From assembly GCF_000739375.1 (NCBI RefSeq), contig NZ_CP006704.1, forward strand, positions 4,650,001 through 4,714,000: 64,000 nucleotides of DNA, read 5' to 3'. Made by a program: the position numbers and the translations under genes. Below, piece after piece: positions 11,415 to 28,317 of this stretch (positions are counted from its first letter, which is position 1; each line of letters starts with the position of its first letter). The DNA is from Comamonas testosteroni TK102. Lineage in GTDB: Bacteria; Pseudomonadota; Gammaproteobacteria; Burkholderiales; Burkholderiaceae_C. The notes beneath the pieces are model-generated. The model made no database searches. It saw only the letters and a list, made by a program, of their open reading frames with translations, and had not been told where the DNA came from.

Positions 11415-12698
11415 TCATGGTTGAGGAACATAACGGGCGCGCGGACGCCACAGGCCAGTCGCGCCGCGCTGCTCCTGTACGTGCGCCGCCCAACCAGCCA
11501 TGCGCGCCACTAAAAAGAGAACCGCAGCCGACCACACGGGCAGCCGAAGCCCGCGCACCAGACAGACAAGTGCGAACTCATGCCTGGGATGGTCTGCGAG
11601 GTTTTCCTGCGCCCAAGCGACGAAATCGAACACCTGTCTCATGTCGAAAGAGTCGTCAGCCAAGTCGGCGGCGATGGCAAGTAAGTGCCTCGCGCGCGGG
11701 TCGCCCCCCTTGTAGAGAGGATGCGTGAACCCCGGTATCTGCTGCCCGCTTTGGTGAAGGCGAATGGCCTTTTCACGCAACGCAACCGCCGTCGGTCTTG
11801 CCGTCAGAAAGCGGTCAACGATCGCATAGTGCCCGGCGATCTCGGTCCCGGAGCTAGCGCAGATGCCCGCGGAAATACAGTCGAACAGGTTTGCCCCACC
11901 CGATGCCGCGGCCCGAACAGCCAGGGTGCCTGGCGGCAGCTCATGGTCTGCAAGGAGCACCAGCAGCGCGTTCACCGCGCGGCTCCGCTCGAGCGTGGCC
12001 TCGCATCCGAAGGAGCGAATGAGCGTCGACGCGATCAGTTCCGAACGCTCCGGCAGCGTCAGCGCGTGTACGGGGCTGACACAGCCTAGCGCTTGCGCAA
12101 TGGCAGAGATCAGCAGATGCGGCTCTTGCACCACGCCACCAACACGACCGCCGCTGCCCGACAGCTTGCGGGTACGTCCCAGCTCAAGGGCCAGCATTGC
12201 GATCGCCCCATACACTGTGTGCGGGTCGGTGCCGTGCAAAATCCGCAAGCCAGCTTCCCGAGCGCGAGCCAACTCCCGCGGAGGGATTATCCAAGCGCCA
12301 ATTCTGGCAACGTCGAGCGGAGCGCCCCATAGCAACTCGCAAACGCGCTCGAATGGAACACCCTGGCGCGCGAGGTCACTAGCCAGATAGCCTCGGTATG
12401 CTGGGCCAGCCTCGGTGATTTCTGTTATTCCGCTGCTAATGATGGGCTGCCCATGGTCCATCGCGCCAGCTGCCGCAGCAGCATGGCCTGCACGGGCCGC
12501 CGCACGCGCAATGACCCGCTCAACGTCCGCTCGGCTGTATAGGTGCGCTTTGGTCCCGGGCTGAGGCACACTACGAATTGCCCCTCTGCTCACATATGCG
12601 TAGAGCGTCTGTGGTCGAACGCCCAGGAGGGCAAGACTAGCCTTCGCATCAAGGAAGTCAGGGTGTCGAGAGGACGTGGAGTCAGAGCCTGTGATCAT
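11415..12698 (-). CDS. HTH-citrate-synthase-fold fusion protein (putative regulator)
   Basis: This is a 427-residue protein with two parts. Residues about 16-65 form a MerR/excisionase-like helix-turn-helix (SLALLGVRPQTLYAYVSRGA, then GTKAHLYSRADVERV). Residues about 80-427 match citrate synthase. Two catalytic His are kept (H252 in ADHELPPGT, H326 in PGFTHPLYKGGDPR), but the catalytic Asp is Glu (E374 in DHPRHEFALV). Many genomes annotate such proteins simply as citrate synthase family. A homologue lies at 24998-26300, and each sits near a Rieske oxygenase set. I infer a DNA-binding sensor of an acid or acyl-CoA rather than a TCA enzyme, but activity is unproven. The ATG at 12698 is preferred; a TTG at 12731 extends the frame. 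A MarR-type operator lies at 12770-12785. Confidence 0.75.
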   Translation of the reverse strand: MITGSDSTSSRHPDFLDAKASLALLGVRPQTLYAYVSRGAIRSVPQPGTKAHLYSRADVERVIARAAARAGHAAAAAGAMDHGQPIISSGITEITEAGPAYRGYLASDLARQGVPFERVCELLWGAPLDVARIGAWIIPPRELARAREAGLRILHGTDPHTVYGAIAMLALELGRTRKLSGSGGRVGGVVQEPHLLISAIAQALGCVSPVHALTLPERSELIASTLIRSFGCEATLERSRAVNALLVLLADHELPPGTLAVRAAASGGANLFDCISAGICASSGTEIAGHYAIVDRFLTARPTAVALREKAIRLHQSGQQIPGFTHPLYKGGDPRARHLLAIAADLADDSFDMRQVFDFVAWAQENLADHPRHEFALVCLVRGLRLPVWSAAVLFLVARMAGWAAHVQEQRGATGLWRPRARYVPQP

Positions 12699-12769
12699 GG
12701 GGTCCCACGCAATCCAGACCTGCAATGGCAAGGGATTCCATAAAGCGTGCCATATCTACATGGCTCATA

Positions 12770-12785
12770 TTTATTAGCCATCTAA
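12770..12785. promoter_or_regulatory. MarR-type operator before the HTH-citrate-synthase gene
   Basis: TTTATTAGCCATCTAA shares its right half with the porin sites and 13 of 16 bases overall. It lies about 70 bp upstream of the preferred start at 12698, between that gene and the MarR gene (stop at 12938), where the promoter is expected. Confidence 0.55.
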
Positions 12786-12937
12786 TAATTTTACACGACA
12801 GATGGAATCTACCGCAGAGAGCGAGCTTAGCCAACTGCCGCATGGGACATGGCATTTAGCCTATCTACCAAGATTCTCAAAAGCGTCTTGCTCTATGCGG
12901 GTCAGCGCCTAGGCATGAGGGCTAGCGCCTCCACGGG

Positions 12938-13483
12938 TTAAGGCTTTGGGGAACCTTGGACAGCCGCTCTCCTCGTGTCATCTTGGATACACTCGTCATT
13001 CGCAAGATTCTCAATAATCTTCAATAGCGAGCGCCGCACGATCCCGACATGCGCATCCGACAGAGACTTAACCGCCAGTGCGTTAACCTCCTCGGCCATA
13101 GGCACAAGCTTTGCCTTGAGGCGCTTGCCTGCAGGCGTAAGGAATACGTACATGCTTTTACGATTGTCGGGCCGGTGCCTTCGCACGACATATCCTAACT
13201 CTTCCATGGCTTTCAGTGCAATGGCCGTCGTGGGCGCCATCACTCCTGCCTCAACGCTCAGCTCCGCCTGGGTGAGTCCATCCCTTTCCCAGAGGATCCG
13301 CAGAAAAGTCCAATGGCCGAGCTGAACATCGTAGCGCGCGAGACGATTCTGCAGTGACCGAAGAAATGCGCGCGTCGCGTCTTTAACCAAGTGAGCCAAG
13401 CGATCGTCAGGAACGCCCTCATGCCAGTGCTGCAGGATTCGGCTCGCCATCTCTGCTGATTCTGTCCTTGCTTTCTTAGCCAA
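12938..13483 (-). CDS. MarR-family transcriptional regulator
   Basis: This is a 181-residue winged-helix repressor type that usually dimerises on a palindrome and releases DNA on binding an aromatic acid. The recognition region is LTQAELSVEAGVMAPTTAIA followed by LKAMEELGYVVRRHRPDNRK. The wing DNRKSMYVFLTPAGKRLKAK is the MarR hallmark. Flanking helices would form the dimer interface. It lies between the phthalate-cluster LysR and the HTH-citrate-synthase gene, all on the same strand. Four loci in the window carry a matching 16-bp palindrome, making this the best candidate for their regulator. Confidence 0.9.
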   Translation of the reverse strand: MAKKARTESAEMASRILQHWHEGVPDDRLAHLVKDATRAFLRSLQNRLARYDVQLGHWTFLRILWERDGLTQAELSVEAGVMAPTTAIALKAMEELGYVVRRHRPDNRKSMYVFLTPAGKRLKAKLVPMAEEVNALAVKSLSDAHVGIVRRSLLKIIENLANDECIQDDTRRAAVQGSPKP

Positions 13484-13907
13484 TGTTCATCCCTCAATGC
13501 ATACTAACAGACACTTTGCCTGATTTATTCCCCGCAACACAGGCAACGAGCGACTACGTCTACACGAGCCGACAGGCACAAACAAGGGGGAGAAGAATGA
13601 AAAGGTACGAAACCAGGCCAAGCGAGCTTAGCAAATATAGCACTCCGCATTCCTTAGTTCCGAACTCCACCACTGCAGAAACAGAACACGCAGCAATACG
13701 GCACCACAGGCAAAATTGAAAGTACACCTGAGCGGCAGTACCGTAAGCCGCCGACTGTAGGATAACCGCCCCAAAATGACATGCAGCAGTCAGCAGGATC
13801 AGGCTACTCTGTATCTTAAATCTCTGAGGAGGGCGTTTTACAAGAACGTACAAGGTGCCCGCCAAGCGCAAGCCTTGTGCATTGCACCGGCACACATATG
13901 CCCTAGG
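13484..13907. other. Intergenic stretch between MarR and LysR genes
   Basis: This is about 420 bases. A 111-codon minus-strand frame (13560-13895) crosses it but is Cys- and hydrophobic-rich with no family resemblance, so I do not call it. The MarR promoter should lie near 13490-13560. The LysR gene ends at its right edge. Confidence 0.4.
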
Positions 13908-14822
13908 CTAGCACCGCCTTTGCAGAGTATCCCTCACTAGCGTACGCAGCCAACGATGCGCCGGATCCTGATGGTGGCGCCTGTGCCATATCTGAATTAT
14001 TTCCACGCTCGGCGACGCGAACGGCAGCGGGATGGCCGTTATACCTTCCTTGCCGTCAAACGCACTGGCCAGATCCATCGGAATAATGGCTGTCAGCTCG
14101 GTTTGCGGAATGATGGTCAACAGGCCAAGATAATGGGGAACCGTGGCCACCACATTCCGCTGCACGCCCATTGCAGCCATAGCCTTCTCAATGACCTCCT
14201 GGCTACGGCCTTCTGTTCTGACCGCAATGTGCTCCGCGGCTTGGAACGAAGCGATATCCAGCTCGCCGCGCGCGGCGAGCTCCCTGTCGCCCGTGATGCA
14301 CAGAAATCCGCTATTGCGCAACAACCTCTGCTGAAAAACACCTCCACTAGTGATATCGGGAAAGTACCCAACGGCAAGATCGACACCTCCTGATTCCAGA
14401 CCTACCTTGAGCTTTTCCACGATAGGGGACACCGTTCTCAGGCGAACACCTGGAGCCTGCTTGCGTACAGCATTGATCAGCAGCGGCAAATAGCAAGTTT
14501 CGCCGACATCTGTCATGCAGATCGTGAATATGCGCGAGGAAGTACGCAAGTCCAACGCCACCTTGGAAAAAATATGCTGGCGGGCGAGTTCGAGGGCTTG
14601 CCGGATCGGCTCAGCGACCTCCTGCGCCCTTAGCGTAGGCTGCATCTCGTTCTTAACACGCACGAACATTGGATCGTCGAAAGCCTTACGCATCTTCGAC
14701 AGCGCGTGGCTCATAGAAGGTTGACTCAGGTGCAATTGCTCGCCAGCCTTAGACACACTGCGGGTTTCCATGAGCGCTTCGAAGACAATTAGCAGATTCA
14801 AGTCCTCTTGAGAAGGCGTCAT
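13908..14822 (-). CDS. LysR-family regulator (NahR/LinR type) of the phthalate cluster
   Basis: This is a 304-residue LysR-type activator. The N-terminal HTH is LNLLIVFEALMETRSVSKAG followed by EQLHLSQPSMSHALSKMRKA. The effector domain has the NahR-group pattern FTICMTDVGETCYLPLLINA, and the C-terminus IIQIWHRRHHQDPAHRWLR is shared with the LysR at 28318. I take the ATG at 14822; the frame runs on to 15056 but the extra 78 residues do not fit the family. It lies downstream of ophB on the same strand with its own 265-bp upstream region, and probably controls the phthalate operon in response to an aromatic acid. Confidence 0.88.
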   Translation of the reverse strand: MTPSQEDLNLLIVFEALMETRSVSKAGEQLHLSQPSMSHALSKMRKAFDDPMFVRVKNEMQPTLRAQEVAEPIRQALELARQHIFSKVALDLRTSSRIFTICMTDVGETCYLPLLINAVRKQAPGVRLRTVSPIVEKLKVGLESGGVDLAVGYFPDITSGGVFQQRLLRNSGFLCITGDRELAARGELDIASFQAAEHIAVRTEGRSQEVIEKAMAAMGVQRNVVATVPHYLGLLTIIPQTELTAIIPMDLASAFDGKEGITAIPLPFASPSVEIIQIWHRRHHQDPAHRWLRTLVRDTLQRRC

Positions 14823-15087
14823 TTTGTCCACGCTATGCAATAAGTCTATAGTTTGAAAAGTTGTTGGAGTTCCAGCCTTAGCCAAGCACCTTACATGCAC
14901 TGCATCCGGAATCATGCATGCGCATAAGGCCACTGCAAAATGAGGCCAGACACAAGGTACTGTCGTCAGACCAAAGGAGACTCTTATAACACTGACGTCT
15001 TGCTCGCCTGTGGCCATCGCAGAGGAGAGGCCACATAGGGTGGAGCTTCCGACCACTCTGTCCGCACCTTTCTCTTACGCAAGCACT

Positions 15088-16266
15088 TCAGCGCGGCAGT
15101 TCCACGTCTTTACCCGAGCCGGCCGAGTCGAGCAACGCTAGACATACCTCAAGCGTAGCGCGCGCCCATTCGCCATCATGCAGCGGCTTGATCTCGTTCA
15201 CCACAGCGTGGTACAACTCATCAATAACCTCGAAACGGGGCACCACCGGCCGCTGCAACGACCGCCGCTCCTTGGCGAGGTCTGCGTACACGCAGACACT
15301 GTCCGGTAACGGGCGTATGTCTCCGCGCTCGCACGACACCACTATCGGGCCAAAATGTTGGTGCCAGATAGGCTGCGCATCCATTGCGGCAGCCACATAT
15401 CCAGGACCTCCATAGGTAGCAGCAGCCTTGAGGTTCGCCTCCTCCTGTGCTGAGCCCACGGTAGCCAGCTTGCGGCGGGCGGCGCCATATGCCTCAGGAG
15501 ACTTGTCACCGCCCATCTCGCCAATCCAGTCGCACCACTCGTCGGAGTCGAAGTGCCCGTAGCCGTTATAGGAGATGCTGGCGAACGCGCCCCCCTCGAA
15601 CCACAGCAGCGCCGAATAGGCACCCTGGGTAGGACGCATAGGATCCCAGTCACCCGTGATGGCTCGAACCCTCCTGACCCGAGTGCCAACCAGCAAGCGC
15701 ACAATGTCGACTTGGTGAGCAGCCTGACTGAACACCACGCCACCGCCCTCTTCAGTGCGCAGTTCCTCGGGACGACGCGGTCGGTAGAGAAAGTCGGTGT
15801 AATTCAACGCGTGGACCATACGCACGGGCCCCAGCTCCCCGCTCTGCACGATCTCTCGAGCGCTCAGGTAGGGTGTGTCAAAGCTGTGACAATGACCGAC
15901 GATCAGGTGTACCCCTGCATCACGGCAGTGCTGGATCATCTCGTCGCAGTCGCCAAGGGACAGCGCCATCGGTTTTTCCACAAGAACATGCTTGCCGTGA
16001 CGTGCTGCAATGCGTGCCTGCTGCGCATGAAATTGGTGTGGGCTGGCGATATAGATAGCCTCTACATCCGGATTAGATGCCAGGCCTTCAATGTCCGGGT
16101 ACACCGGAGCACGGAAGTCGCTCGCAAATTGAGCCCGCGCCGATTCGCGCGGATCGCAAGCAGCCACCAGCTTTATCCGCGGGTCCTGCTGGAGTGTCGG
16201 CAACATAAGCGTGAAGGCGCGCCCGAGTCCGGCGACACCCAGTCGAAGTTGGTGGCCGGCGTTCAC
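15088..16266 (-). CDS. ophB: cis-4,5-dihydrodiol phthalate dehydrogenase (Gfo/Idh/MocA family)
   Basis: This is a 392-residue NAD(P)-dependent oxidoreductase. It should rearomatise cis-4,5-dihydro-4,5-dihydroxyphthalate to 4,5-dihydroxyphthalate, step two of the phthalate route. The Rossmann fingerprint is [20 protein letters not shown]. The Gfo/Idh/MocA signature [18 protein letters not shown] carries the EKP motif, and [17 protein letters not shown] is in the catalytic domain. It is unrelated to the SDR-type dihydrodiol dehydrogenases of most ring-oxygenase pathways, which is characteristic of the phthalate (Pht4/OphB) branch. Its start overlaps the stop of the reductase gene by 4 bases, and it closes the operon. 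Assignment is by sequence memory plus operon context. Confidence 0.85.
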
Positions 16267-17234
16267 AGGTCGATCACCAATTCGTCTGACTTAGCCCGAG
16301 AGACGCAGATCATGATTTGCTTGTCCATCTCCTCGGGCAGCAATACCATGTCTCGATGATCAGCCTCGCCACTAAGTAGATTCGTGCGGCAGGTGCCGCA
16401 AGTACCGCTCTCGCAAGACGCCGCTGCATTACAGCCATGCTCACGAAGCACAGACAGAATCGACTTGCCGACTGGTACCTCAAACGCCGCGCCGGAGTTG
16501 GCCAATTTTACCATGAAAGGCTTGTCGTCTGGCCGCACTCCTCCGCCTTCGTTAAAGCTCTCGAAATGTACGTTGGTCGGCGACCAGTGCCCAGTCATGT
16601 CGCGCACAGCTTCCATCAGCGGGCGGGGGCCACAACAGTATACGTGGGCGGAATTAGGCTTTTCAAGCTCGGGCCACAGGTCGAAGACGCGCTCAGCGTC
16701 CCCGTGACTGTGGTGGATCCGCACTCGCCCCTTGAGTTCGGGGGCTCCAAGCTCTTCACGGAAGGCTGTGTTTTCGGGAAAGCGCGTCAGATAGATTAGC
16801 TTCCACGGCGCAGGCGGCAACTCACCGAAAGAACGGATCATGGAAAGGATCGGCGTGATGCCAATACCCCCGGCGATAAAAAGGTAGCGCTTGGCGTTAT
16901 CCACCAGCGGAAATGCGTTGGAAGGAAGCGATGTAGGCAGCGTGTCGCCCTCCTGCAGTTGCTCATGCATTGAAAGTGAACCGCCCTGCCCTTCGGGGTC
17001 GCGCTTGACGGCAATAACATAGCGCTTTCGCTCTGTCGGGTCATTGCAGAGCGAATATTTTCGCAGCATGCCGTTAGGGGCTTGCACCTTTACATGCGAG
17101 CCGGGAGTGAAGGGGGGTAGATCGCTGCCATCGTCATGCACCAACTCAAAGCTGCGGATATCGAGCGCCAAGTCGATGATGCGAGACACCCTCAACGGCA
17201 TCTGCGTATCGGAGTGAGTATGCGTAGAAGACAT
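16263..17234 (-). CDS. ophA1: Phthalate 4,5-dioxygenase reductase (FMN/2Fe-2S)
   Basis: This is a 323-residue single-chain reductase that passes electrons from NADH through FMN to a C-terminal plant-type 2Fe-2S centre and on to the oxygenase. The flavin motif is RKYSLCND, the nucleotide motif is [15 protein letters not shown] and the CGP motif is [12 protein letters not shown]. The iron-sulfur ligands are the Cys of [16 protein letters not shown] and a later one in [10 protein letters not shown]. The domain order FMN-NAD-Fe/S is that of phthalate dioxygenase reductase, a class IA system with no separate ferredoxin. It lies between the Bug gene and ophB in the operon. Confidence 0.92.
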
Positions 17235-17247
17235 TGTGAAATCTCTC

Positions 17248-18225
17248 TTATTCGGCCTTGAGTTGGGCCCGCTTAGCCGCGTCTGTCACCTGCGTCTTCT
17301 CGGCACGTAGTGCCTGCCTCAATTGCTCCACCGAGCCGCCTACTGGGTCAACACCGGCAGTGCGAAGCTGTTCAATGACTTCGGGCATCTTCACAATCTT
17401 GTCAATCTCGGCATTTATGCGGCTAACCACTGCTTCAGGTGTATCCTTCTTTCCTAGAACCGCAACCGTAAAGGCAAAGTCAAAGCCAGGAATCTTTTCG
17501 GCCAGCGCTGGCATTTGCGGCACTAGAAGGGACCGCGCTGAGGAATTAGTGGCCAGAAGCCGAGCTTGACCTGATTTGACAAACCCCATGAGCGATGGTG
17601 GCGAAGCGAAAACCATGTCAACCTGCCCCCCGATCATCGCAGGCACCGAGTTGGCGCTTCCCTTAAAAGGGACGTGTGTCATCGTGAGGCCTAAGCTAGC
17701 ATTCATGGCCTCTGCCGTGAGGTGGTGGATGCTGCCTGTGCCTGCTGAGCCATAGTTAAGCTCTCCCGGCTTGGCCTTCGCCAGCGCGATGAGTTCCTCC
17801 AGCGTCTTCGCCTTAACCTTCGCATTGACAGCAAGGAACAGCGGAGCCTTGCCGACGAGCGAAATCGGGACAAAATCGCGACCAGCGTCGTAGCTAATCT
17901 TCTTTGTTAGCAGCGGCGTAATCGACAGCATTGGTCCATCGGTCACCAGCAGCGTGTAACCATCTGCCGGCGCCTGCAGTATCGCTGATGCCGCCACCGC
18001 GCCACCGGCGCCGGGCCGATTATCGACGTAGACCGGCTGCCCCAAAACATCGCCCAAAGGGCGAGAGAGGATACGAGCCACTGTGTCAGGAAGACCACCC
18101 GCAGAATAGGGAACTATCAACTTGATAGCGCGGGTCGGGTAGTTTTGAGCGTACGCGTTGGAGCTAAATGCAAAGGGAGCCAGAAAGGCCATCCCAAGCA
18201 ACTTGATTAGGGTTTTGCGTCTCAT
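17248..18225 (-). CDS. Bug/TctC-type solute-binding protein in the phthalate operon
   Basis: This is a periplasmic binding protein of the TctC/Bug family, 325 residues from the ATG at 18225. GGAG lies 9 bases upstream; the frame also opens at a GTG at 18240 that overlaps this ribosome site. The signal peptide is MRRKTLIKLLGMAFLAPFAF, cut after AYAQ. It has YPTRAIKLIVPYSAGGLPDT, VDNRPGAGGAVA and ADGYTLLV. Its place between ophC and ophA1 suggests it binds phthalate or a close acid; known phthalate permeases in other strains are MFS or ABC, so this would be a different uptake solution. Confidence 0.9.
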   Translation of the reverse strand: MRRKTLIKLLGMAFLAPFAFSSNAYAQNYPTRAIKLIVPYSAGGLPDTVARILSRPLGDVLGQPVYVDNRPGAGGAVAASAILQAPADGYTLLVTDGPMLSITPLLTKKISYDAGRDFVPISLVGKAPLFLAVNAKVKAKTLEELIALAKAKPGELNYGSAGTGSIHHLTAEAMNASLGLTMTHVPFKGSANSVPAMIGGQVDMVFASPPSLMGFVKSGQARLLATNSSARSLLVPQMPALAEKIPGFDFAFTVAVLGKKDTPEAVVSRINAEIDKIVKMPEVIEQLRTAGVDPVGGSVEQLRQALRAEKTQVTDAAKRAQLKAE

Positions 18226-18256
18226 GGGGCTTGTCTCCACTTATGTTCTTTTGGAT

Positions 18257-19246
18257 TTAGATGCTGTAGCTCTCATAGGTTGCGGGATGGAACAGCTCAC
18301 TAACTGGAACCAGTCTGGATGACAGGCCTTGCTCGTAGCGACTACGAACGAAGGTCTCCAGGGTCCTACTTGCCGGCGCCACACCATAGGACCAGAAATC
18401 CTCACCCATAGCCACGCGTGCAGCGTGCAGTTGCTCTTCAACGAATGGAAGCGTGACCTTGGTGGCCGAGGTATCGGAAAGAAGCTCCAAAGCCACAGCC
18501 TTGGACTGGGTGAAAGCCTTCACAATCGCAGCTGCCAGCCAAGGGTGCTTGGCCGCCAGATCTTTTTTAATTGCCGCCACATGCATGATCGGAAAGACGC
18601 CTGTACGACGGTAATAGTCCTTGGCTACCGCCGTCGGATCGTCGAAGAGCCAGCCAATATTTGGGTTGGCCAGCGCTGCCCGACTGGGTGGACGGGGGGC
18701 CATAAAAGCGTCGATCTCTCCTGAATCGAGCATTTGCGAAATCGTTGCCCCCTCGGGAGCCTGTTCAATACGGATATCAGCTGGAAGCTGCAGTTTGACT
18801 TTCTCAGGGCGACCGGGCGTCTCAATGCCTCCGCGTACCCAGGTCACATCGGAGGGACTGACTCCGAAATCGTCTTGCAAGACCGCTCGTGCCCATACAT
18901 TAGCGGTAAGTTGATACTCAGGTACACCAATGCGCTTGCCCTTCAGGTCAGAAGGCTCCCTAATACGGTCCTTGCGGACGTAGATTGATGTGTGCCGAAA
19001 AGCCCGCGACAGAAAGACCGGCAGCGCGATATAGGGACACTCACCGCGCGAGTGTTTCACCAAGTAGCTGGAGAAAGAAAGCTCGGTGACGTCGAAGTCA
19101 ATGCTACGCATCGCTCGGAAGAACATCTCCTCGGGATTGAGGAGCATATACACTGGGTCGACGCCATCTATTTGCACACGGCCATCGAACAATGCTCGAG
19201 TACGGTCGTAGTCGCCCATCGCGACGGAAAGTTGGAGTTTACTCAT
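18257..19246 (-). CDS. ophC: 4,5-dihydroxyphthalate decarboxylase
   Basis: This 329-residue protein resembles known 4,5-dihydroxyphthalate decarboxylases (Pht5/OphC), which release CO2 to give protocatechuate. The start MSKLQLSVAMGDYDRTRALF and the segments DGVDPVYMLLNPEEMFFRAM and GKRIGVPEYQLTANVWARAV are characteristic. The fold is that of type-2 periplasmic binding proteins (NMT1/TauA-like), but there is no signal peptide, as expected for a cytoplasmic enzyme. It starts 4 bases after ophA2 stops, so the two are coupled. With ophA2, ophA1 and ophB it completes phthalate to protocatechuate. Confidence 0.88.
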   Translation of the reverse strand: MSKLQLSVAMGDYDRTRALFDGRVQIDGVDPVYMLLNPEEMFFRAMRSIDFDVTELSFSSYLVKHSRGECPYIALPVFLSRAFRHTSIYVRKDRIREPSDLKGKRIGVPEYQLTANVWARAVLQDDFGVSPSDVTWVRGGIETPGRPEKVKLQLPADIRIEQAPEGATISQMLDSGEIDAFMAPRPPSRAALANPNIGWLFDDPTAVAKDYYRRTGVFPIMHVAAIKKDLAAKHPWLAAAIVKAFTQSKAVALELLSDTSATKVTLPFVEEQLHAARVAMGEDFWSYGVAPASRTLETFVRSRYEQGLSSRLVPVSELFHPATYESYSI

Positions 19247-19250
19247 GGGA

Positions 19251-20570
19251 TCAGGACTTCACGGAATAGGAGGGTTCGAACTCGGGGCGATCCTGGCCAT
19301 CCAGCCAGACATAGTGAGCGTCGTATGTGCGCCAGTCGGTCGTCTTTGGGACGATGGCTTGGAAGGAACAGACCGTTGGCGTCGCCGCTTCGACCCCCGT
19401 CCCGATGGCAGGTGCCCCTTGCTCGAAGGCCTTCACCGCGTCGAGCATCTGCTTGCGAAATTCCACGATAGCCAGATCGCTTGCGCCCAGGCGGTCATGG
19501 GTACGGTCGGCGATGGGCCCCATAGTCAGCCACATCGCGACATCTTGGTTAGGGAAACCAGTGATGCCAGTGAAGTTACCGGCCTTCATAGCGTTACGGT
19601 CCTGCCAGAATTTGTTTGCTTCATTGCGCAAGGGACGGTAGTTTTGATCCAGGTCGACCCCCACCGTCTGACGCAAAAACTTGCGCCAGGTTTCAGTCTC
19701 CGGCGTTTGCGACGGATGGCCCCACGCGATGAAATAGAACGCCGTGTTTGTGTCATCCATCGGCACGTTGATGTTGGCCACGTTATAGAGGTTGTTTGGC
19801 GGGATCAGCGCAGTAGCCGGGGCCACGAAAACCGTGGAGCGCACGTAATCGTTCTCCGCAGCATTCGAGAGCGGCCGGCGCAACGCGGCATAGCGAAAAC
19901 CGTAACCGGTACGCTGCACCTGCATGCGCGGAGCCTTGTCGGTCGAGGGACGCAACCAAGTCTTGTCGGTAGCCTTCGCGCCATCGACCCGAGCCGGCAC
20001 CATATCTGAGGAATGGAGACTGGAGCTATGGGCTGAGTCGATAGCGCCTTCGAGAATCTGCGCCCAGTTGCACGGCAGTAGCACCTTCGCGATGCTCACC
20101 CGCGTGTCGGCCGTCGGCGCCCATGCCGGCGGCAGGAATTCAGGCATGGTTTCCTTCGGTCCCATGTAAGCCCACACCATACCGGCCCACTCTTGGGTCG
20201 GATACGCGGTGTGCTTAACCTTGTCAACCATGCCGCTGGCTGCTGGCTCGGACGCCATCTCCAGCACGTTGCCATCGACATCCATCTTCCAGCCGTGGTA
20301 GAGGCAGCGCAGACCTCCCTCCTCGTTGCGACCGTACACCAACGAGGCTCGGCGGTGAGGGCAATACTCGTCCATGACACCGACGCGGCCCTCACTGTCG
20401 CGAAAGACCACCAGATCCTCGCCGAACGCACGCGCTTTCACTGGCGTTCCGTCAGGCTCGCCCACCTCCTCCACTAGGCAGATGGGCGTCCAATGCCGAC
20501 GCATGAGACGCCCCATCGGTGCGTCTCCTTCAACGCGACAAAGCAGTTCGTTTTCTTCGTGGGTCATCAT
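19251..20570 (-). CDS. ophA2: Phthalate 4,5-dioxygenase, oxygenase subunit (Rieske)
   Basis: This 439-residue ring-hydroxylating oxygenase adds O2 across carbons 4 and 5 of phthalate. The Rieske 2Fe-2S ligands are C70 and H72 (YCPHRRASL) and C89 and H92 (RCLYHGW). The mononuclear iron site is D178, H181 and H186 (EGAIDSAHSSSLHSS). Length and segments such as MVPARVDGAKATDKTWLRPS match the alpha-only phthalate oxygenase family; no beta subunit is expected or present. The ATG at 20570 has GGAG 10 bases upstream. It follows the hemerythrin gene by 36 bp and precedes ophC by 4 bp. Confidence 0.93.
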   Translation of the reverse strand: MMTHEENELLCRVEGDAPMGRLMRRHWTPICLVEEVGEPDGTPVKARAFGEDLVVFRDSEGRVGVMDEYCPHRRASLVYGRNEEGGLRCLYHGWKMDVDGNVLEMASEPAASGMVDKVKHTAYPTQEWAGMVWAYMGPKETMPEFLPPAWAPTADTRVSIAKVLLPCNWAQILEGAIDSAHSSSLHSSDMVPARVDGAKATDKTWLRPSTDKAPRMQVQRTGYGFRYAALRRPLSNAAENDYVRSTVFVAPATALIPPNNLYNVANINVPMDDTNTAFYFIAWGHPSQTPETETWRKFLRQTVGVDLDQNYRPLRNEANKFWQDRNAMKAGNFTGITGFPNQDVAMWLTMGPIADRTHDRLGASDLAIVEFRKQMLDAVKAFEQGAPAIGTGVEAATPTVCSFQAIVPKTTDWRTYDAHYVWLDGQDRPEFEPSYSVKS

Positions 20571-20606
20571 GATGTGTTCTCTCCAGGAGTGATTAAAGGT
20601 ATCGAA

Positions 20607-21095
20607 CTAAGTCGCCAAGGCAGTCTCAGATTGGCGCCCCTTGCGCAGCACTATCGGTTTAGCGCCGTGCTGCAGCTTGCAAAGCCAATGAGAAAGGGCC
20701 GAGTCGAGGTGCTGAACATGGGCTGGAAACCAAGCAGCCAACTCGTCCGCCAACCGATATGCAACGCTGACTTCGCCGGTGCAATCCATACGCCGGAGCA
20801 CACCTCGAAGCGTTGAAAGCACGGCATCGTGCTCACGAATGTGACAGTCGCGTGGAGGAAATTGCGTAGCGAGCATCAACTCATTCTCAGCCTCAAAGTG
20901 CGATGTCGCATGCGTAAGCACTGCTTCAAGCGTTTGCGCCATATCGGAAGCGCTGGCACGCTGCATGCGTTCGATTAGCCAAGCGAGCCGCTCGTGCTCA
21001 TCATCGACTGCCGCGAGTCCTAGCAATAGCGCCTCTGACCAGAGCGGCGGTGATGACTCAATAGGCATCTGAATAGTCAAAGCAGACATCGACAT
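20607..21095 (-). CDS. Bacteriohemerythrin-like protein heading the phthalate operon
   Basis: This is a 162-residue single-domain hemerythrin, a four-helix bundle that binds O2 or stores iron at a di-iron site. Taking the start at 21095, the ligands line up: H34 (DDEHERL), H66 and E70 (SHFEAENEL), H85 and H89 (CHIREHD), H126 and D131 (AHVQHLD). The frame extends to 21158 but the added residues are Cys/Arg-rich and unlikely. It lies 36 bp before ophA2 on the same strand and has a MarR-type palindrome 17 bp before its start, so it appears to lead the oph transcript. A role in supplying O2 or iron to the oxygenase, or sensing O2, is an inference. Confidence 0.82.
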   Translation of the reverse strand: MSMSALTIQMPIESSPPLWSEALLLGLAAVDDEHERLAWLIERMQRASASDMAQTLEAVLTHATSHFEAENELMLATQFPPRDCHIREHDAVLSTLRGVLRRMDCTGEVSVAYRLADELAAWFPAHVQHLDSALSHWLCKLQHGAKPIVLRKGRQSETALAT

Positions 21096-21111
21096 ACACA
21101 GCCGGCAAGTT

Positions 21112-21127
21112 TTTATTAGACACCTAA
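21112..21127. promoter_or_regulatory. MarR-type operator before the hemerythrin-oph operon
   Basis: TTTATTAGACACCTAA matches the site at 12770 in 14 of 16 bases and is less like the porin sites. It ends close to the hemerythrin start, where a repressor would block transcription. A further palindrome ACTAA-CAA-TTAGT lies at 21197-21209. Binding is inferred. Confidence 0.5.
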
Positions 21128-21287
21128 CAATTCTAACAATGCAAGCTCGTCTCGGCAATGAATTTCACCCCGGGGTTTCCCTAAAATTATTTGTCAACTA
21201 ACAATTAGTCATTCCGCCTTTACACGGAACTACGGGACTCAATCAATGACGGCGCAAAAAGATGGCTGGCTGTGAATCGCCAAGCGG

Positions 21288-22080
21288 TTATTTGCAGATT
21301 TGAGCCGGGACACCGAAGCGACGTTGGCGATGCCGCTGTGCGACCGTGGCAGTTGTAGTGGTGCTGCCAGTTCGCCAGGGCACGAGCCACTCAGCAGAGT
21401 TCTGGTACGTCAGGCCATAGTCCCACTCACTTAGCTCTGACTGGATGGACCGCTCGGCCTCGCCATTGGTCTATGGCCGGTGCGATCTGATGAGCTTTTG
21501 CCGCACGTCCAAAGCCTCGCAGGCAGCCGCAAACACCTTCCACCGGAAAGCTGCACTGCTGTCAGTCAGCAGGCGTTTGATGCACGCGTGGTCAACGATC
21601 GCCACAAACAATGTCTCCCGGCCTGTACCCTCGACCGAGTCTCGCCGGCCGCCAGTCACTTGATGGGTGGGTCTGACGATGCTCCAGAGCATCCTGGTGT
21701 CGATGTGCAGCATGTCACCAGAATCCTTGTCCTCGCAGCGCATAACGGACTCGGCAGGCCCCTGAGGCGAGAGAGGCCAGCACGGCCCCATGTGCGCGCA
21801 AACCTAGCACAGAGCAACGCAAGGTGGCAAGAACCACGGAGATGTACTTCCAAAGTGCCATTGCGCGATAGATCCGGCGGGTGCGCGAGATGAGACAGTG
21901 GGATACCTTCCTGCCGGCAGCCCACCTGCAAAGCAGGCGTGCAGGATTGGTACGTCAAGCGCTGAAAGTACCGGGCCGAGAACACCAGCGTCAATGAGTT
22001 CACGAACAGCCTGAGTACGATGGTCAAGGCCCAGGTGCGCGTCGGGTAGCGCGGTGTTGCACGCAGGAGGCCAGGCCATG
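21288..22080 (-). pseudogene. IS481-family transposase remnant
   Basis: The readable parts are MLHIDTRMLWSIVRPTHQVT, RRDSVEGTGRETLFVAIVDH, KRLLTDSSAAFRWKVFAAAC and, after a stop, TNGEAERSIQSELSEWDYGL then TYQNSAEW. These follow the IS481 integrase core in order (Asp in HIDT, Asp in TDSSAAF, Glu in GEAERSIQ). Frameshifts and stops break it several times, and upstream of about 21790 the N-terminal half is barely readable. It separates the phthalate operon from the second Rieske set. Confidence 0.75.
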
Positions 22081-22171
22081 GTCTCCTAGGGCCCGGCGCG
22101 CCCACAGGGGACACCAAGCCATGTGGTCGTGCCCGGCTCAGTCCTCGCTTAGAAGACGGCCAGCCTGGAGG

Positions 22172-23374
22172 TCAGAGCTTATCGAGGCGCACCGAGCGGT
22201 CGGCGAGCATATCTGCCGACGGGCACGCGCCCTGCTTGAGCCAACGCTTGGCCACCTTGATGTCCCGCGGTGCATTCACCGAGATCACGCTGCGCAGTCG
22301 GCCATCCGAGATCTGGAACATGGAGAACGCGCCCTCCTCTGCAGACCCGCGCAGGGTGCCCTCCAGGTCGTTGGACGGAGTGCCGAGGACCTGCAAATTC
22401 AGGTTGTACTGGTCGGACCAGAACCACGGGATCTCGTCATATGCCCCGTTCCCGCCGGCGATCGCCTTGCCCACGGCGATCGCCTGGTTCTGGGCGTTGG
22501 CCCACGACTCGAAGCGCAGACGGCAGCCCGCCCAGGAATTGGGCTGATTCGCCACGTCGCCGGCCGCATAGATGTCGGGGTCGGAGGTCCGACCGGACTG
22601 GTCTACGACAATGCCGTCCCGGACCTCGAGCCCACAGGCTTCGGCCAAGCTGGTGTCCAGGACCAGCCCGATCCCGACCACGACCGCATCGAACTCCTGC
22701 GACTCGCCGGGCAGTTGCACGGCCAGAGCGCGCTGGAGCCCCACAGAAAACGATGTGATTGTTGTCGACAGGCGGACCTCGACGCCCTCCTGGCGGTGCT
22801 TTTCGAGCAGGAACTCCGAGAATCGGGGGGGAAGCGACCGCGCGCACAGGCGCGGCCCGGCCTCCAGTAGCATAACGTTGACCTGCTTCTTCCTCGCCGT
22901 TGCCGCGATCTCCAGCCCGATCCATCCGCCCCCGATGACCAGCAGCCGGTTGCCGGGAACCAGGTGCCTGGCGATGGCCCGGGAATCCTCGATCGTGCGC
23001 AGGGCATGGACGCTGGGCAGGTCCGCGCCGGGACACGACAGCTGCCGAGGGCGCCCGCCGGTGGCCAGCACGAGCTTGTCGTAGTGGACCAGCGAGCCAT
23101 CCGCGCACCGGACCAGGTGGCCGGCGCGGTCGATGCCGACGGCCTCGACGCCAGGCCGGAAGTCCACGCGCAGCGCCTCGCACTGCTGTGCGGTGAGAAG
23201 CACGGGAGGGTGCTCCTGCGCTCCGCTGAGTACCCCCTTGGACAGCGGGGGGCGCTCGTACGGCGCATGCGGCTCGCGGCCCAGAAGGAGGATCCCTCCC
23301 TCATGCCCTCCCTCGCGCAGCGACCGGGCAACCCAAGCGCCGGCCTGGCCGGCTCCTATGATGACGACATCCAT
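22172..23374 (-). CDS. FAD/NAD-dependent ferredoxin reductase (BphA4 type)
   Basis: This is a 400-residue glutathione-reductase-fold flavoprotein that reduces the Rieske ferredoxin encoded just upstream. It has the FAD motif MDVVIIGAGQAGAWVARSLR, the NAD motif LLVIGGGWIGLEIAATARKK and the second FAD motif DIYAAGDVANQPN. APYERPPLSKGVLSG is characteristic of oxygenase-coupled ferredoxin reductases. I prefer the ATG at 23374 (GGGA 8 bases upstream) over one at 23392. It is the last gene of the oxygenase-ferredoxin-reductase unit. Confidence 0.9.
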   Translation of the reverse strand: MDVVIIGAGQAGAWVARSLREGGHEGGILLLGREPHAPYERPPLSKGVLSGAQEHPPVLLTAQQCEALRVDFRPGVEAVGIDRAGHLVRCADGSLVHYDKLVLATGGRPRQLSCPGADLPSVHALRTIEDSRAIARHLVPGNRLLVIGGGWIGLEIAATARKKQVNVMLLEAGPRLCARSLPPRFSEFLLEKHRQEGVEVRLSTTITSFSVGLQRALAVQLPGESQEFDAVVVGIGLVLDTSLAEACGLEVRDGIVVDQSGRTSDPDIYAAGDVANQPNSWAGCRLRFESWANAQNQAIAVGKAIAGGNGAYDEIPWFWSDQYNLNLQVLGTPSNDLEGTLRGSAEEGAFSMFQISDGRLRSVISVNAPRDIKVAKRWLKQGACPSADMLADRSVRLDKL

Positions 23375-23395
23375 GACTGTTTCCCGTTGCATCGC

Positions 23396-23716
23396 TCAGT
23401 GGACCGGCCGCAGGAAGATCACCCCCTGCTCGACCTTGACCGGATAGCAGTGCAGCGGCACGGTGCATGGGGCTCCCACCGCACGGCCACTCCTGATGTC
23501 GAACGTACCCTCGTGCAGCGGACACTCGATGAGACAGGAGTCAACCACCATGCCCAGCGACAGGTCCGCGTCTCCGTGCGTGCACGTGCCGTCCGTGGCG
23601 AAGATGTCCCCGCCGAGGTTGTAAAGGCACACCCGCTTGCCGTCGAACTCCACCGAATGCGTGTCGTCTTCGTCGATATCGGAGACGTTGCCGACCTTGA
23701 TCCATTCATCTTCCAT
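23396..23716 (-). CDS. Rieske-type 2Fe-2S ferredoxin
   Basis: This is a 106-residue electron carrier between the flavin reductase and the oxygenase. The Rieske ligands are in CTHGDADLS (Cys, His) and CPLHEGTFD (Cys, His), about 18 residues apart. The ATG at 23716 has GGGAG 5 bases upstream. It is like the ferredoxins of biphenyl, naphthalene and related dioxygenases. It lies between the oxygenase and the reductase with short spacers, so the three form one electron-transfer chain. Confidence 0.92.
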   Translation of the reverse strand: MEDEWIKVGNVSDIDEDDTHSVEFDGKRVCLYNLGGDIFATDGTCTHGDADLSLGMVVDSCLIECPLHEGTFDIRSGRAVGAPCTVPLHCYPVKVEQGVIFLRPVH

Positions 23717-23741
23717 AATGACTCCCATTTGTTCCTGTGCC

Positions 23742-24887
23742 TTACGCCGCCTCGGACGTCATCACGTCGATGTAGTGATTCTCCATGTGGTACAGAGCCT
23801 CCTCCAGCGGAGACATCGGACCGGGCTTGAAGAACTCCGAGCCTGCGCTGTTCTGCATGCCCTCCACCATCACGGCATCCTCGGCGATGATTTGGCGCAC
23901 GAAGCCGACATATTTCTCCATCTCCTCGTCGTAGTTCGGGATCGAGAAGGCGCCTTCGGGGAACAGCAGGTAGCAGATGACCCGGGTCTCGGTGGGGGAG
24001 ATCGGCCAGATATGCCACATGCGAACGCTGTCGGCGCGCATCGACAGGTTCAGGTTGGGATAGATACCCGCCTTGCAGGCAATGCCACTGGGCTTGTCCT
24101 GCGCCCAGGGCAGGGTCGGGAAGACCTGATCACCGGACGTCGAGTGGGGCCGGGCCTCGTACTGGGTATGCCATCCGCCGTTTCCCAGGAGATTGAAGCG
24201 CACCTGCTCGCCCTTGACGAAGCCGCCGAAGGTTCCCTTGTGGATGACGCCGACGTGGTAGATGTCGATCAAGTTCTCGACCAGGAATTTCCAATTGCAC
24301 TTGACGTCGATCTCGACCTTCTGGGCAAGCCTGCAATGGTCGGTCTGGAACCACCACAGCGGCTGCTCGAACGGTGCGATGTAGTCCTCGAAGGACATCG
24401 GCTCATCGCTGAAGTTCACGAAAATCCAGCCGCGCCAGACCTTGACGTGCAACTGCCGCAGGCTGCAGTTCTTCAGTTCAACCTCCGAGGCCTTCATGCC
24501 GGGTGCGACAACCAGCTTGCCGCTCACGTCATACAGCCACGCGTGGTAGGGGCAGCTGAATTCCTTCGCATTGCCGCGGCCGACGGCGATCTCCACGCCC
24601 CGGTGCAGGCACTGGTTCATGTAGGCCACGACCTGATCGGGCGCCGGACGGGACACCACGATCGATTCCTTCATCACCTGGAAGGTGTAGTAGTCGCCAA
24701 CATTGGGGATCTCTTCGACGCGCCCCACAGAAAGCCAGTACTTCATAAAGATCTGCTGCTTTTCCATGTCGTAGATCTCGGGCGAGCTGTACACCTCGCC
24801 CGGCAGGTGACGTGCACTGAGCAATTTCTTGCGAGTTTCCTTGAACTTGGGGCGCAGGTCCAGGAGCTGTTGTTCGGCTACTTGCAT
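23742..24887 (-). CDS. Rieske non-heme iron oxygenase, alpha subunit, substrate unknown
   Basis: This is a 381-residue ring-hydroxylating or demethylating oxygenase. The Rieske ligands are C93 and H95 (QCLHRGVEI) and C112 and H115 (SCPYHAWLYD). The mononuclear iron is held by D208, H211 and H216 (NLIDIYHVGVIHKGT). No beta-subunit gene is present, so it is probably an alpha-only trimer, yet it has a separate Rieske ferredoxin and GR-type reductase. The start at MQVAEQQ (24887) has AAAGG 9 bases upstream; MTTM at 24896 is an alternative. It is divergent from the HTH-citrate-synthase gene at 24998 across a short palindromic promoter region. I cannot assign a substrate. Confidence 0.88.
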   Translation of the reverse strand: MQVAEQQLLDLRPKFKETRKKLLSARHLPGEVYSSPEIYDMEKQQIFMKYWLSVGRVEEIPNVGDYYTFQVMKESIVVSRPAPDQVVAYMNQCLHRGVEIAVGRGNAKEFSCPYHAWLYDVSGKLVVAPGMKASEVELKNCSLRQLHVKVWRGWIFVNFSDEPMSFEDYIAPFEQPLWWFQTDHCRLAQKVEIDVKCNWKFLVENLIDIYHVGVIHKGTFGGFVKGEQVRFNLLGNGGWHTQYEARPHSTSGDQVFPTLPWAQDKPSGIACKAGIYPNLNLSMRADSVRMWHIWPISPTETRVICYLLFPEGAFSIPNYDEEMEKYVGFVRQIIAEDAVMVEGMQNSAGSEFFKPGPMSPLEEALYHMENHYIDVMTSEAA

Positions 24888-24939
24888 CGTGGTCATCCTT
24901 TCAGAAATGCGTTGATCGTGCGCAGCGGATACTAGACAA

Positions 24940-24955
24940 TACATTGATTAATGTA
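24940..24955. promoter_or_regulatory. Palindromic operator in the divergent oxygenase/regulator promoter
   Basis: TACATT-GATT-AATGTA is a perfect 6-bp inverted repeat between the Rieske oxygenase gene (start 24887, leftward) and the HTH-citrate-synthase gene (start 24998, rightward). A second pair, ATCGATAT twice with a 3-bp spacer, follows at 24959-24978. These are natural candidate binding sites for the HTH-citrate-synthase protein itself, but that is inference. Confidence 0.55.
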
Positions 24956-24997
24956 TAGATCGATATGAGAATCGATATATTCTGTCGGGAGAACCCT

Positions 24998-26300
24998 ATG
25001 CCCTTGAATAATCCCTCTGAGAGCGCACGTCCTCAGCGCCAGATCAACGACGTCGACTACGTCGGCAGCGCCGAAGCCATGTCGATCCTGGGCGTGCGGC
25101 GCGAAACGCTGTACACCTACGTCAGCCGCGGACTCATCAAGACGATGCAGCGTCCGGGCGTGAAGGCCAAGCTATACCGCAAGGCCGATGTCGAAAAACT
25201 CAGGAGCCGGGCCGTTGCCCGCTCGGGCGGGCCCCAGGTCGCACACTCCCTTCGCTATGGCGAGCCGATCGCGCAGACATGGATCAGCGAGATCACCGCC
25301 CACGGCCCGCGCTACCGGGGGGTGCTCGCGCGCGACCTGGTGCGCGACGGCCGGTCGTTCGAATTCGCCAGCGAGCTCATCTGGACGGGACTGCCGCGCA
25401 CACGGGACATCGCATGGCCCCCCCCTGCAGGACACCCGCCAAGCGGAATCCCTGGTCAATCTGGCCTTGCATTCGGCAGAGCACGTCACGCCGCTCAAGC
25501 TCCTGTCGATGCTGACGACCTCGCTGTCGGCATTCGAGCGGGCCGAGGACGACATGCAGACGGCCGGCTTCGCAGCCTGCCGGAGGCTGTTGCAGACGCT
25601 GGCCGGCACCGCGGGCGTCTTCGGTCCCAGGGCTCAGTTTTCAGCGCCCCGAGACGGAGAGTTCATGGCGCAGTGCGTAGCCCGCGGGCTGGGCCTGGGC
25701 GACAGGCCCGATGCTGTGCGGGCCATCGATGCAGCGCTTGTGATGTCCGCCGAGCACGAGCTGTCGGCCCCGACGTTCGCCACGCGGATCTGCGCCTCGA
25801 CGGGAGCGGATCTGCATGCCTGCGTCGCGGCCGCGATGCTGACCCAGTCGGGGTCGATGCAGGTCGGGGGGGCCGTCGAGGTGGAGGCGCTCATCGATGC
25901 CCTGCCCTTCGGACTGGAACCGGAAGACGCCCTGCCGCTGGCGGCGGCCTCGGGCTTCAAGAGCAACGAACTGCCCTGCTTCGGACACCCTCTGTACGAC
26001 GGCGAGGATCCGCGCTCGGCAGTGCTCCTCGACTTCATCGGACGCCTGGACACGCATGGACCGGACACGCCGAGGGTACAGGCACTGGTGGCCGGTGCAC
26101 GGCAGGCAGGGCAGCATCCGAACGTGTTCGCCGCCCTCGTGATCCTGTGCAAGGCGATCGGTCTACCCAACGGAAGTGGCGCGATGCTCCACACCTTGGC
26201 GCGCACCAGCGGCTGGATCGCCCATGCGATGGAGCAGCGCCTGACCGGGGCCATGCTGCGCCCGAGGGCCAAATACATGGGTCAACACCACCCTCGGTGA
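24998..26300 (+). CDS. HTH-citrate-synthase-fold fusion protein, frameshifted in a C8 tract
   Basis: This is a homologue of the protein at 11415-12698. An N-terminal HTH (AEAMSILGVRRETLYTYVSR, then GVKAKLYRKADVEKL) is joined to a citrate-synthase domain. The frame breaks at a run of eight C at 25418-25425: upstream reads RDIAWPP, downstream continues one frame over as LQDTRQAESLVNLALHSAEH. Removing one C restores 433 residues. In the repaired protein two catalytic His remain (SAEHELSAPTF near 252; CFGHPLYDGEDP near 329), while the catalytic Asp is replaced by Phe (QHPNVFAALV near 377). The start at 24998 has GGGAG upstream. Sequencing error, phase variation or a real pseudogene are all possible. 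Confidence 0.7.
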
Positions 26301-27329: not shown

Positions 27330-27500
27330 TATGATTTCCGGCCGTTACATCGCGAGCACCTCGACGACTTCATCAGCGTCTACAACTTCGCGCGCAGGCT
27401 CAGGACTCTGCAGGGCTTGGCACTCTGCGAATTCATCTGCAGACAGTGTGAGCGGCTCAGGATTGATCCGATCCATCCAATGCCGGCACTGAACACCTAG
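27330..27500 (+). pseudogene. IS481-family transposase C-terminal fragment
   Basis: These 56 codons read YDFRPLHREHLDDFISVYNF, ARRLRTLQGLALCEFICRQ and IDPIHPMPALNT, the usual C-terminus of an IS481-type transposase. The rest is missing. Its TAG stop is part of the CTAG where IS copy 2 is inserted. Confidence 0.75.
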
Positions 27501-28317
27501 GGCGTGTTGAGATTTAACGTGAATTGATCACAGCCGATACCAACGTGATGACAGCAGCGAAGCTGCTGTCTGTCTTGTCGCAGCGCATTGCAATACGTTT
27601 GAACTCCTTGAGCTTGCAAAAGAAGTTCTCGATCAGGTGCCGCCACTTGTAGACCTCTATATCAATCTGCAAGGGCGCTCGCCGATTGGACTTATGTGCA
27701 ATCACCACTTGGAAGCCCTGTGCCAGCAAGCGTTGCTCCAGCCAGTCTGCGTCAAATGCTTTATCGGCCAGCAATGCCAGCAGATCTATGCCTTCAAGCA
27801 GTTGCTCTACACCTTGAAGATCATGTCGTTGGCCTGGCCGCAAAACAAATCGGATCAAGTTCCCAAGGGTATCTGTCAGCGCCAAGATCTTGGTGGTCAA
27901 ACCACCTCGACTGCGACCTATGGCCTAGCCCGCAGACCCTCTTTTGCACCCTTACCATGCCGGTGCACTCGCACCATCGTTGCATCCAACATCACGTATT
28001 CCATGTGCGGTTGATCGCTGACTGCATCAAACAGCTTTTGAAAAACATCAGCTTTGACCCAGTCGCGAAACCGCTTCAAGACGGTGCTCCACTTACCAAA
28101 CTCGGGTGGCAAATCTCGCCAAGGGCTACCTGTTCGTGTAATCCAAAGCACTGCTTCCAAGAAGAGTCGATTGTTGGAGCCACTGCGTCCTCGGTCTCCA
28201 ACCTTCCCCAAACACAATGGACTCATACGAGTCCATTGTCCATCTCTCAAAACATATCGCATCACCGCGATGATTGTCACGTAGCCGCGGAGATAAAGGA
28301 TCAAATCTCAACAAATC
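27501..28317 (-). mobile_element. IS5-family (IS427-like) element, copy 2
   Basis: This is an 817-bp copy of the element at 8846-9662, in the same orientation and differing by one base. It is flanked by CTAG on both sides (27497-27500 and 28318-28321), which fits a 4-bp target duplication. The left CTAG ends an IS481 fragment and the right CTAG is the stop codon of a LysR gene. Confidence 0.92.
27514..28262 (-). CDS. IS5-family transposase, two overlapping frames (copy 2)
   Basis: The organisation is the same as in copy 1: an N-terminal frame (27918-28262) with YVMLDATMVRVHRHGKG and a C-terminal frame (27514-27900) with LADKAFDADWL and HLIENFFCKLKEF, to be joined by frameshifting. The only protein difference is Ala for Glu in HKSNRRAPLQ. 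All DDE residues are present, so this copy may also be active. Confidence 0.85.

Follow-up and report, generated by a model that had tools for sequence, protein, structure and literature searches.

Two genes of Comamonas testosteroni TK102, at 11415-12698 and 24998-26300 of a 64,000-nucleotide (nt) stretch of its genome (hereafter the window; NZ_CP006704.1, positions 4,650,001 to 4,714,000), carry homologous fusions of an N-terminal helix-turn-helix (HTH) to a citrate-synthase fold, in which the catalytic aspartate is replaced by Glu in one copy and by Phe in the other. On comparative grounds, we consider it likely that these fusions are one-component transcription regulators which use the citrate-synthase pocket as a carboxylate sensor, and that they descend from HTH-citrate synthases that keep the Asp. 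In its favour are the conserved replacement of the Asp and the kept Arg residues of the pocket, signs of purifying selection, a divergent position next to genes of catabolism and transport, and a palindrome found in part of the family. A preliminary description of the window had proposed a class of metabolite-sensing regulators beside Rieske oxygenase operons. The comparative evidence supports the class itself, although Glu is no proof of lost catalysis, the link is broader than Rieske oxygenases and one of the two genes is frameshifted. As in that description, no characterised member emerged: in searches of open-access literature for an HTH-bearing or regulatory citrate synthase, none of the titles and abstract openings listed dealt with one. 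The architecture itself is already present in databases, under enzyme names.

Domain architecture of the two fusions

The gene at 11415-12698 (minus strand) is intact and encodes 427 amino acids (aa). Its product is of the Glu type (H264, H305, E362; the numbering of H264, H305, D362, R314, R387 and R407 is that of E. coli citrate synthase throughout) and matches the Pfam domain Citrate_synt (PF00285) at 2e-39 and HTH_17 weakly, at 24.7 bits (cut-off 27). A predicted model of this copy has a winged HTH topology of two helices, a beta hairpin and a long helix (H18-25, H29-37, E43-45, E52-55, H56-70). The Phe copy (24998-26300, plus strand) matches HTH_17 at 29.7 bits and Citrate_synt at 1.8e-39. 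Both window proteins thus join a DNA-binding domain to the citrate-synthase fold, and they are homologous, with 48% identity over 111 N-terminal columns and 34% over 234 C-terminal columns.

The preliminary description had listed both as whole genes, and this is correct only for the Glu copy. The interval 24998-26300 spans 1303 nt, which is not a multiple of three, and the reading frame breaks inside a run of eight C (25418-25425), so that the HTH and the larger part of the synthase domain lie in different frames (Table 1). The two pieces are 88% and 87% identical to an intact protein encoded on an Acidovorax carolinensis plasmid (L007; L numbers denote loci), with an omega of 0.13; because of this closeness the break is probably either a recent inactivation or a sequencing error. 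Decay into pseudogenes was rejected as an account of the fusions, as omega values of 0.10-0.20 indicate purifying selection.

The HTH had been described as excisionase- or MerR-like. HTH_17 was matched instead of a MerR domain, for which the cut-offs were missed: the N-terminal piece of the Phe copy scored 19.3 against 21.6 bits for MerR_1 and 15.1 against 28.2 bits for MerR, and the Glu copy gave no match. Some relatives do bear MerR_1 in precomputed domain annotation. A canonical MerR regulator was discarded as an interpretation, since both window proteins fall short of those thresholds.

The fusions share with citrate synthase and 2-methylcitrate synthase (PF00285; TIGR01800) the fold, two catalytic His and three oxaloacetate-binding Arg, and differ from them in the replaced Asp and the added winged HTH. 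Their scores also stay well under the NCBIfam equivalog and subfamily cut-offs, the best being 99.6 against 421.3 bits (TIGR01800) and, for the C-terminal piece of the Phe copy, 115.6 against 332 bits (PRK12350, its best match). Variants of Mycobacterium tuberculosis CitA, which we take to belong to the PRK12350 group, top the list of solved structures for this piece; the CitA chains are about 380 aa long and align without the HTH part of the fusions.

Catalytic and substrate-binding residues

Alignment to solved synthases and to GltA and PrpC of the same genome agrees with the earlier assignment of the active site. Both window fusions retain H264 and H305 and have Glu or Phe in the Asp362 column, leaving incomplete triads (H,H,E and H,H,F). 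At this position in the Phe copy, phmmer places a one-residue gap where MAFFT gives an ungapped substitution; there is no acid in either. R314, R387 and R407, the oxaloacetate-binding residues, are all present in both proteins.

For the family at large, two homologue searches, each scoring about 8,000 candidates, contributed their best 120 (of 945 and of 219, respectively), and the genome scan its best 80 of 587. Because best-ranking entries were taken, proteins related to the two window genes are over-represented in the sample, and some entries are fragments. Listed homologues and fetched loci were collapsed at 95% identity to 311 representatives, in which the Asp362 column reads 138 E, 94 D, 60 F, 8 A, 3 Y, 2 S, 2 T, 1 P, 1 W and 2 gaps. 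A residue other than Asp thus stands in 215 of the 311 (138 E, 60 F, 17 others), and Glu and Phe mark two large conserved groups. H264 is replaced by Asn in 19 representatives and by Tyr in one; H305 is changed in 9 of 138 members of the Glu type (to Leu in four, Gln in three, and Ile and Arg in one each) and in 2 of 94 members of the Asp type. The arginines are almost invariant, with R314 retained in 309, R387 in 307 and R407 in 307 of the 311.

Asp362 is the base of the citrate-synthase condensation, and since it is, non-acid residues at this position very probably abolish catalysis. The preliminary description had claimed loss of the base for both window proteins. Judged by sequence, this is firm only for members with Phe, Ala, Ser, Pro, Tyr, Trp or Thr and for those that have lost a His. 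The replacement of Asp by Glu was dropped as proof of inactivity, because M. tuberculosis CitA, like the Glu-type fusions, naturally has Glu here (TNVEF where GltA reads PNVDF), as do 10 of the 10 plain synthases directly divergent from Asp-kept fusions (at L064, L065, L049, L085, L072, L073, L078, L082, L086 and L139). Our tree holds 17 plain synthases taken from other loci, and the 7 besides these ten have Asp, including two Pseudoxanthomonas genes that lie one gene away from an Asp-kept fusion. The active-site Asp is reportedly, to go by the title of Handford et al. (1988), important for the binding of acetyl-coenzyme A (CoA) and not of oxaloacetate, which would be compatible with a pocket that still holds carboxylates after the Asp is lost.

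These Glu residues also speak for a trigger enzyme, in which the synthase domain would still be catalytic, with Glu as base, condensing an acyl-CoA of the pathway with an oxo acid into a citrate-like compound, while the HTH would do no more than tune expression to need. Most Glu-type members retain both His and the three Arg, and a plain citrate synthase adjoins the Asp-kept fusions in 17 of 36 scanned loci. We nevertheless regard a trigger enzyme as unlikely. Members that have lost a His, or that carry Phe, Ala, Ser, Pro, Tyr, Trp or Thr in place of the Asp, should fail at the standard chemistry and yet have the same architecture and, where loci are available, the divergent placement too; the operons nearby also vary widely.

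Two other systems give an enzyme fold a regulatory role. MocR/GabR regulators are GntR HTH domains fused to an aminotransferase fold; they resemble the proposed working of the citrate-synthase fusions in that an enzyme fold is the sensor of a one-component regulator, but both the HTH and the enzyme fold differ. CitA of Caulobacter crescentus is a moonlighting citrate synthase whose regulatory role, independent of catalysis, controls CtrA, although the main text of that paper does not mention an HTH (PMC7083601). The same source includes a D361E strain of CitA, and it describes citB and citC, two further genes of synthase-like type whose locus tags are consecutive; CitC failed to complement gltA (PMC7083601).

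Gene neighbourhoods of the family

Genes in unannotated loci were called with a simple script based on open reading frames (ORFs) and GC3, so that single genes may be wrong, and the starts of the fusions were estimated from the profile match. A gene was counted as divergent from an upstream neighbour within 300 bp; the control consisted of the other genes in these loci that encode 250 aa or more, 504 in all. The set comprised 85 proteins, no pair of which is more than 90% identical; it omits the two window genes, five near-duplicates, one duplicate contig and the partial L180, and one Asp-lost locus has no upstream gene. By this measure 31 of the 41 Asp-lost fusions are divergent, as are 42 of the 43 that keep the Asp, against 140 of the 504 control genes.

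The 36 scanned neighbours of Asp-kept fusions include 17 citrate synthases and 10 CoA-transferases III; about ten of the synthases are directly adjacent, the rest (in Pseudoxanthomonas and relatives) having an intervening reading frame. The gene from which an Asp-lost fusion diverges serves, in most cases, the uptake of organic acids or catabolism. It encodes a TctC-type binding protein (L054, L136, L133, L051, L058, L048, L189, L190, L191), an MFS transporter (L080, L055, L061, L056), a Rieske oxygenase (L007, L009), an FAA hydrolase (L199, L179) or a CoA-transferase III (L104, L130). A cupin, a TPP enzyme, an FAD enzyme, a permease, an NMT1-like protein, a short-chain dehydrogenase, a hydantoinase, LysE and, at L057, a methyltransferase occur once each. 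Where the upstream gene is on the same strand it encodes TctC (L178, L184, L062), EamA (L046, L183), TetR (L052) or an enoyl-CoA hydratase (the second fusion of L050), and at L188 an isochorismatase is the second gene upstream. The upstream neighbours at L181, L135, L011 (annotated as ferredoxin) and L008 (annotated as MarR) lie outside the Pfam scan, and L060 has none; that of L129 had no Pfam match, and at L132 the scan took the gene beyond the first one called, an ORF of 83 aa.

Asp-lost fusions, then, associate with carboxylic-acid uptake and catabolism generally. The co-occurrence with catabolic operons, for which the preliminary description had suggested a survey, is borne out to this extent, Rieske oxygenases being one case among others. 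Plasmid pACP3.2 of A. carolinensis bears both types: its Phe type is divergent from genes for a Rieske alpha subunit, a ferredoxin and a reductase, and its Glu type lies behind MarR at the end of a phthalate-type cluster. Further catabolic settings are found on annotated plasmids of Massilia WG5, Paraburkholderia fungorum, Caballeronia zhejiangensis and P. largidicola.

The frequency of plain synthases beside Asp-kept fusions, about ten of them directly divergent, could also be taken to mean that the fusion is the catalytically inert partner in a heteromer with an ordinary citrate synthase, which it would tether or regulate. We give this heteromer very little credence, as no Citrate_synt match occurs among the scanned first upstream neighbours of Asp-lost fusions and the palindromes described below would be left unexplained.

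Candidate operators

A palindrome had been noted near 24940-24955. It was confirmed with slightly wider limits, and a second one follows it closely (Table 1); both sit in the 110-nt gap between the start codons of the divergent dioxygenase and Phe-type genes (the dioxygenase start being placed by alignment). Both are nearly unchanged in L007 and L181, where the surrounding DNA differs more. The Glu copy has another palindrome, TTATTA-GATGGC-TAATAA, 73-90 nt upstream of its start, which is roughly kept in L008 and less so in L185.

Inverted repeats upstream of part of the family share the form TYGATT-N4-AATCRA. The 68 upstream stretches of the discovery set (21 kb) contain 7 exact sites, and the other 1,063 kb of DNA of these loci 1. 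In 19 later loci, none more than 90% identical to the discovery set, there were 2 exact sites in 6,080 bp against 0 in 323,532 bp, and 3 against 2 at up to one mismatch (Poisson P of about 1e-5). The pooled sets give 9 exact sites in 27 kb upstream of fusions, at positions that are approximate because the fusion starts are estimates. As intergenic DNA is richer in A and T, the 320-bp stretches upstream of 503 other genes (161 kb) were also scanned, and gave no exact site and one at one mismatch; in the 153 of these stretches that precede divergent genes (49 kb) there was none of either kind. A single operator for all members was rejected, since sites occur in a minority of loci. For the same reason, the motif is either limited to part of the family or varies within it.

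Ancestry of the fusions

A FastTree phylogeny of 341 sequences, with the Asp column masked and GltA as root, sets all 322 HTH fusions apart from 19 plain synthases (support 0.84) and places 230 fusions in one Asp-lost clade (0.78). Within this clade, a single subclade of 68 (0.99) unites 64 Phe members with three Tyr and one Trp; the Asp was lost separately in L057 (Glu) and L104 (Thr), and ten Glu-bearing plain synthases form a clade of their own.

Asp-kept HTH-citrate synthases, such as the 'citrate synthase family protein' ATU_RS25370 of Agrobacterium fabrum and the TK102 protein at L126, share the two-domain architecture, the tree group and the divergent placement with the Asp-lost fusions. 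Unlike the window fusions, they have all three catalytic residues, and their neighbour is a plain citrate synthase (Agrobacterium) or a CoA-transferase III (L126). In the favoured reading, the ancestral fusion would have had all three residues, have stood divergent from another citrate synthase or a CoA-transferase, and probably have been both an enzyme and the regulator of its neighbour. In one large descendant group Asp would have given way to Glu, perhaps first, and later to Phe, Ala, Pro and others, the replacement accompanying recruitment to uptake and catabolic operons.

The L126 gene, at about 4.12 Mb, is the third HTH-citrate synthase of the TK102 genome. At about 4.23 Mb (L006/L127) the genome also encodes a 261-aa synthase-like protein, of the citryl-CoA-lyase type by its length and without an Asp in the catalytic column, flanked by ORFs that by eye are acyl-CoA-synthetase-like and short-chain-dehydrogenase-like. 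Another genome (G452, L177-L180) has three full and one partial HTH-citrate synthases on a single contig within about 220 kb.

A proposed model of carboxylate sensing

The sequences and their residues, the predicted fold, the order of the genes and the recurring palindrome are observations; the DNA binding, the ligand, the lack of catalysis and the sign of regulation are inferred from them. The N-terminal winged HTH would bind palindromes in the gap between the regulator gene and the divergent gene set; in part of the family these follow TYGATT-N4-AATCRA, and in the rest they differ. The C-terminal domain, presumably a dimer like its relatives, would no longer condense substrates. Its retained Arg trio would instead hold a carboxylic acid, either the inducing substrate or a pathway intermediate and possibly a CoA ester, and closure of the two lobes on this ligand would alter DNA binding. 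For the Phe-type gene of the window, provided that it is whole, the target would be the Rieske/ferredoxin/reductase set at 22.2-24.9 kb; what the Glu-type gene might control is uncertain. More broadly, we lean slightly towards the view that this regulator class arose from citrate synthase by a stepwise loss of catalysis, leading from a synthase-regulating ancestor to sensors that read aromatic or aliphatic carboxylates, plastic-derived ones included, with the oxaloacetate pocket, and that the residue now in place of the Asp (Glu, Phe, Ala, others) tunes the choice of ligand.

Several observations weigh against the fusions being sensors. The majority of Asp-lost members are of the Glu type, which need not mean lost catalysis, and such members, including 11415-12698, may still be enzymes. 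The HTH_17 score of this same protein is below its cut-off. All ten Asp-lost genes that are not divergent are Glu type, among them L008, a close relative of 11415-12698, and the Glu copy of the window is an additional non-divergent case beyond the 41; divergent placement with a palindrome in between is seen for the window's Phe copy and not for its Glu copy. Support for the Asp-lost clade is moderate. At up to one mismatch, the motif was found in the first set at 8 of 21 Glu, 3 of 3 Phe, 1 of 1 Pro and 6 of 36 Asp loci, and at 0 of 5 Ala, 0 of 1 Ser and 0 of 1 Thr loci, and in the second set at 3 of 12 Asp-lost and 0 of 7 Asp-kept loci; the two exact sites of the second set belong to proteins 56-64% identical to one member of the first. 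No sigma-70-like promoter was found in 24800-25050.

Should the sensor model hold, genes that many genomes carry under the annotation 'citrate synthase' or 'citrate/2-methylcitrate synthase' would encode regulators of organic-acid and aromatic catabolism, including phthalate-type clusters, and metabolic models that count them as enzymes of the tricarboxylic acid cycle would need correcting. The family would offer new carboxylate-responsive switches for biosensors, as well as a clear case of an enzyme turned sensor with its intermediates extant (three residues kept; Asp to Glu; non-acid or His-lost).

The surrounding region

The preliminary description had placed each fusion beside an oxygenase set. 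Only the Phe copy directly adjoins its oxygenase; in the Acidovorax counterpart of this set, a ferredoxin gene lies between those for the oxygenase alpha subunit and the reductase. The Glu copy comes after the MarR and then the LysR gene, making three regulator genes at the phthalate end of the region, and the phthalate dioxygenase gene (19251-20570) starts about 6.5 kb away. The Rieske protein of this operon scores 1038 bits across all 439 residues against 7fjl/7v25, of which 7V25 is a phthalate dioxygenase of C. testosteroni. Its NMT1-like protein is presumably 4,5-dihydroxyphthalate-decarboxylase-like.

Table 1. Features of the window around the two fusion genes
Feature	Position	Strand	Basis and remarks
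IS copy, left of region	8842..9664		1 mismatch in 823 nt against 27497-28319
MarR-type regulator, upstream of the Glu-type gene on the same strand	12938..13483	-	Pfam; arrangement identical on the Acidovorax plasmid
LysR-type regulator	13908..15056	-	Pfam (13908-14828 scanned)
Phthalate-type operon: Gfo/Idh dehydrogenase, reductase, TctC, NMT1-like protein, Rieske oxygenase	15088..20570	-	Pfam; structure match
Ferredoxin reductase (Pyr_redox_2, Reductase_C) of the Rieske set next to the Phe-type gene	22172..23392	-	Pfam; same order in Acidovorax
Rieske oxygenase alpha subunit, divergent from the Phe-type gene	23742..24887	-	Pfam; start by alignment with the annotated Acidovorax gene; longest ORF to 24944
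Palindrome ATACAT-TGATTA-ATGTAT, between the dioxygenase and Phe-type genes	24939..24956		Kept in L007 and L181 with one spacer change each
Second palindrome, ATCGAT-ATGAGA-ATCGAT	24959..24976		Core 24960-24975 fits TYGATT-N4-AATCRA with one mismatch
Phe-type fusion, frame 1: HTH domain and beginning of synthase domain	24998..25417	+	Translation; HTH_17
Phe-type fusion, frame 2: remaining synthase domain (H264 H305 F362), out of frame with 24998-25417	25410..26300	+	Translation; Citrate_synt
IS copy, right of region	27497..28319		Same orientation as 8842-9664

Two near-identical insertion sequence (IS) copies bracket the whole 18-kb region that holds both fusions and both oxygenase sets, an arrangement that resembles a composite transposon. 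With one fusion frameshifted in the window and matches sparsely distributed (at E 1e-70, in 27 of 399 genomes of the family, a count that takes in Asp-kept members), this setting would suit mis-annotated passengers, that is, enzymes with a vestigial HTH moved along with catabolic islands by IS elements and without a regulatory role. Purifying selection, conserved HTH positions, divergent placement and the recurring palindrome make this highly improbable. On pACP3.2 (L008 1-247), a further gene annotated as 'citrate synthase' adjoins an IS5 transposase.

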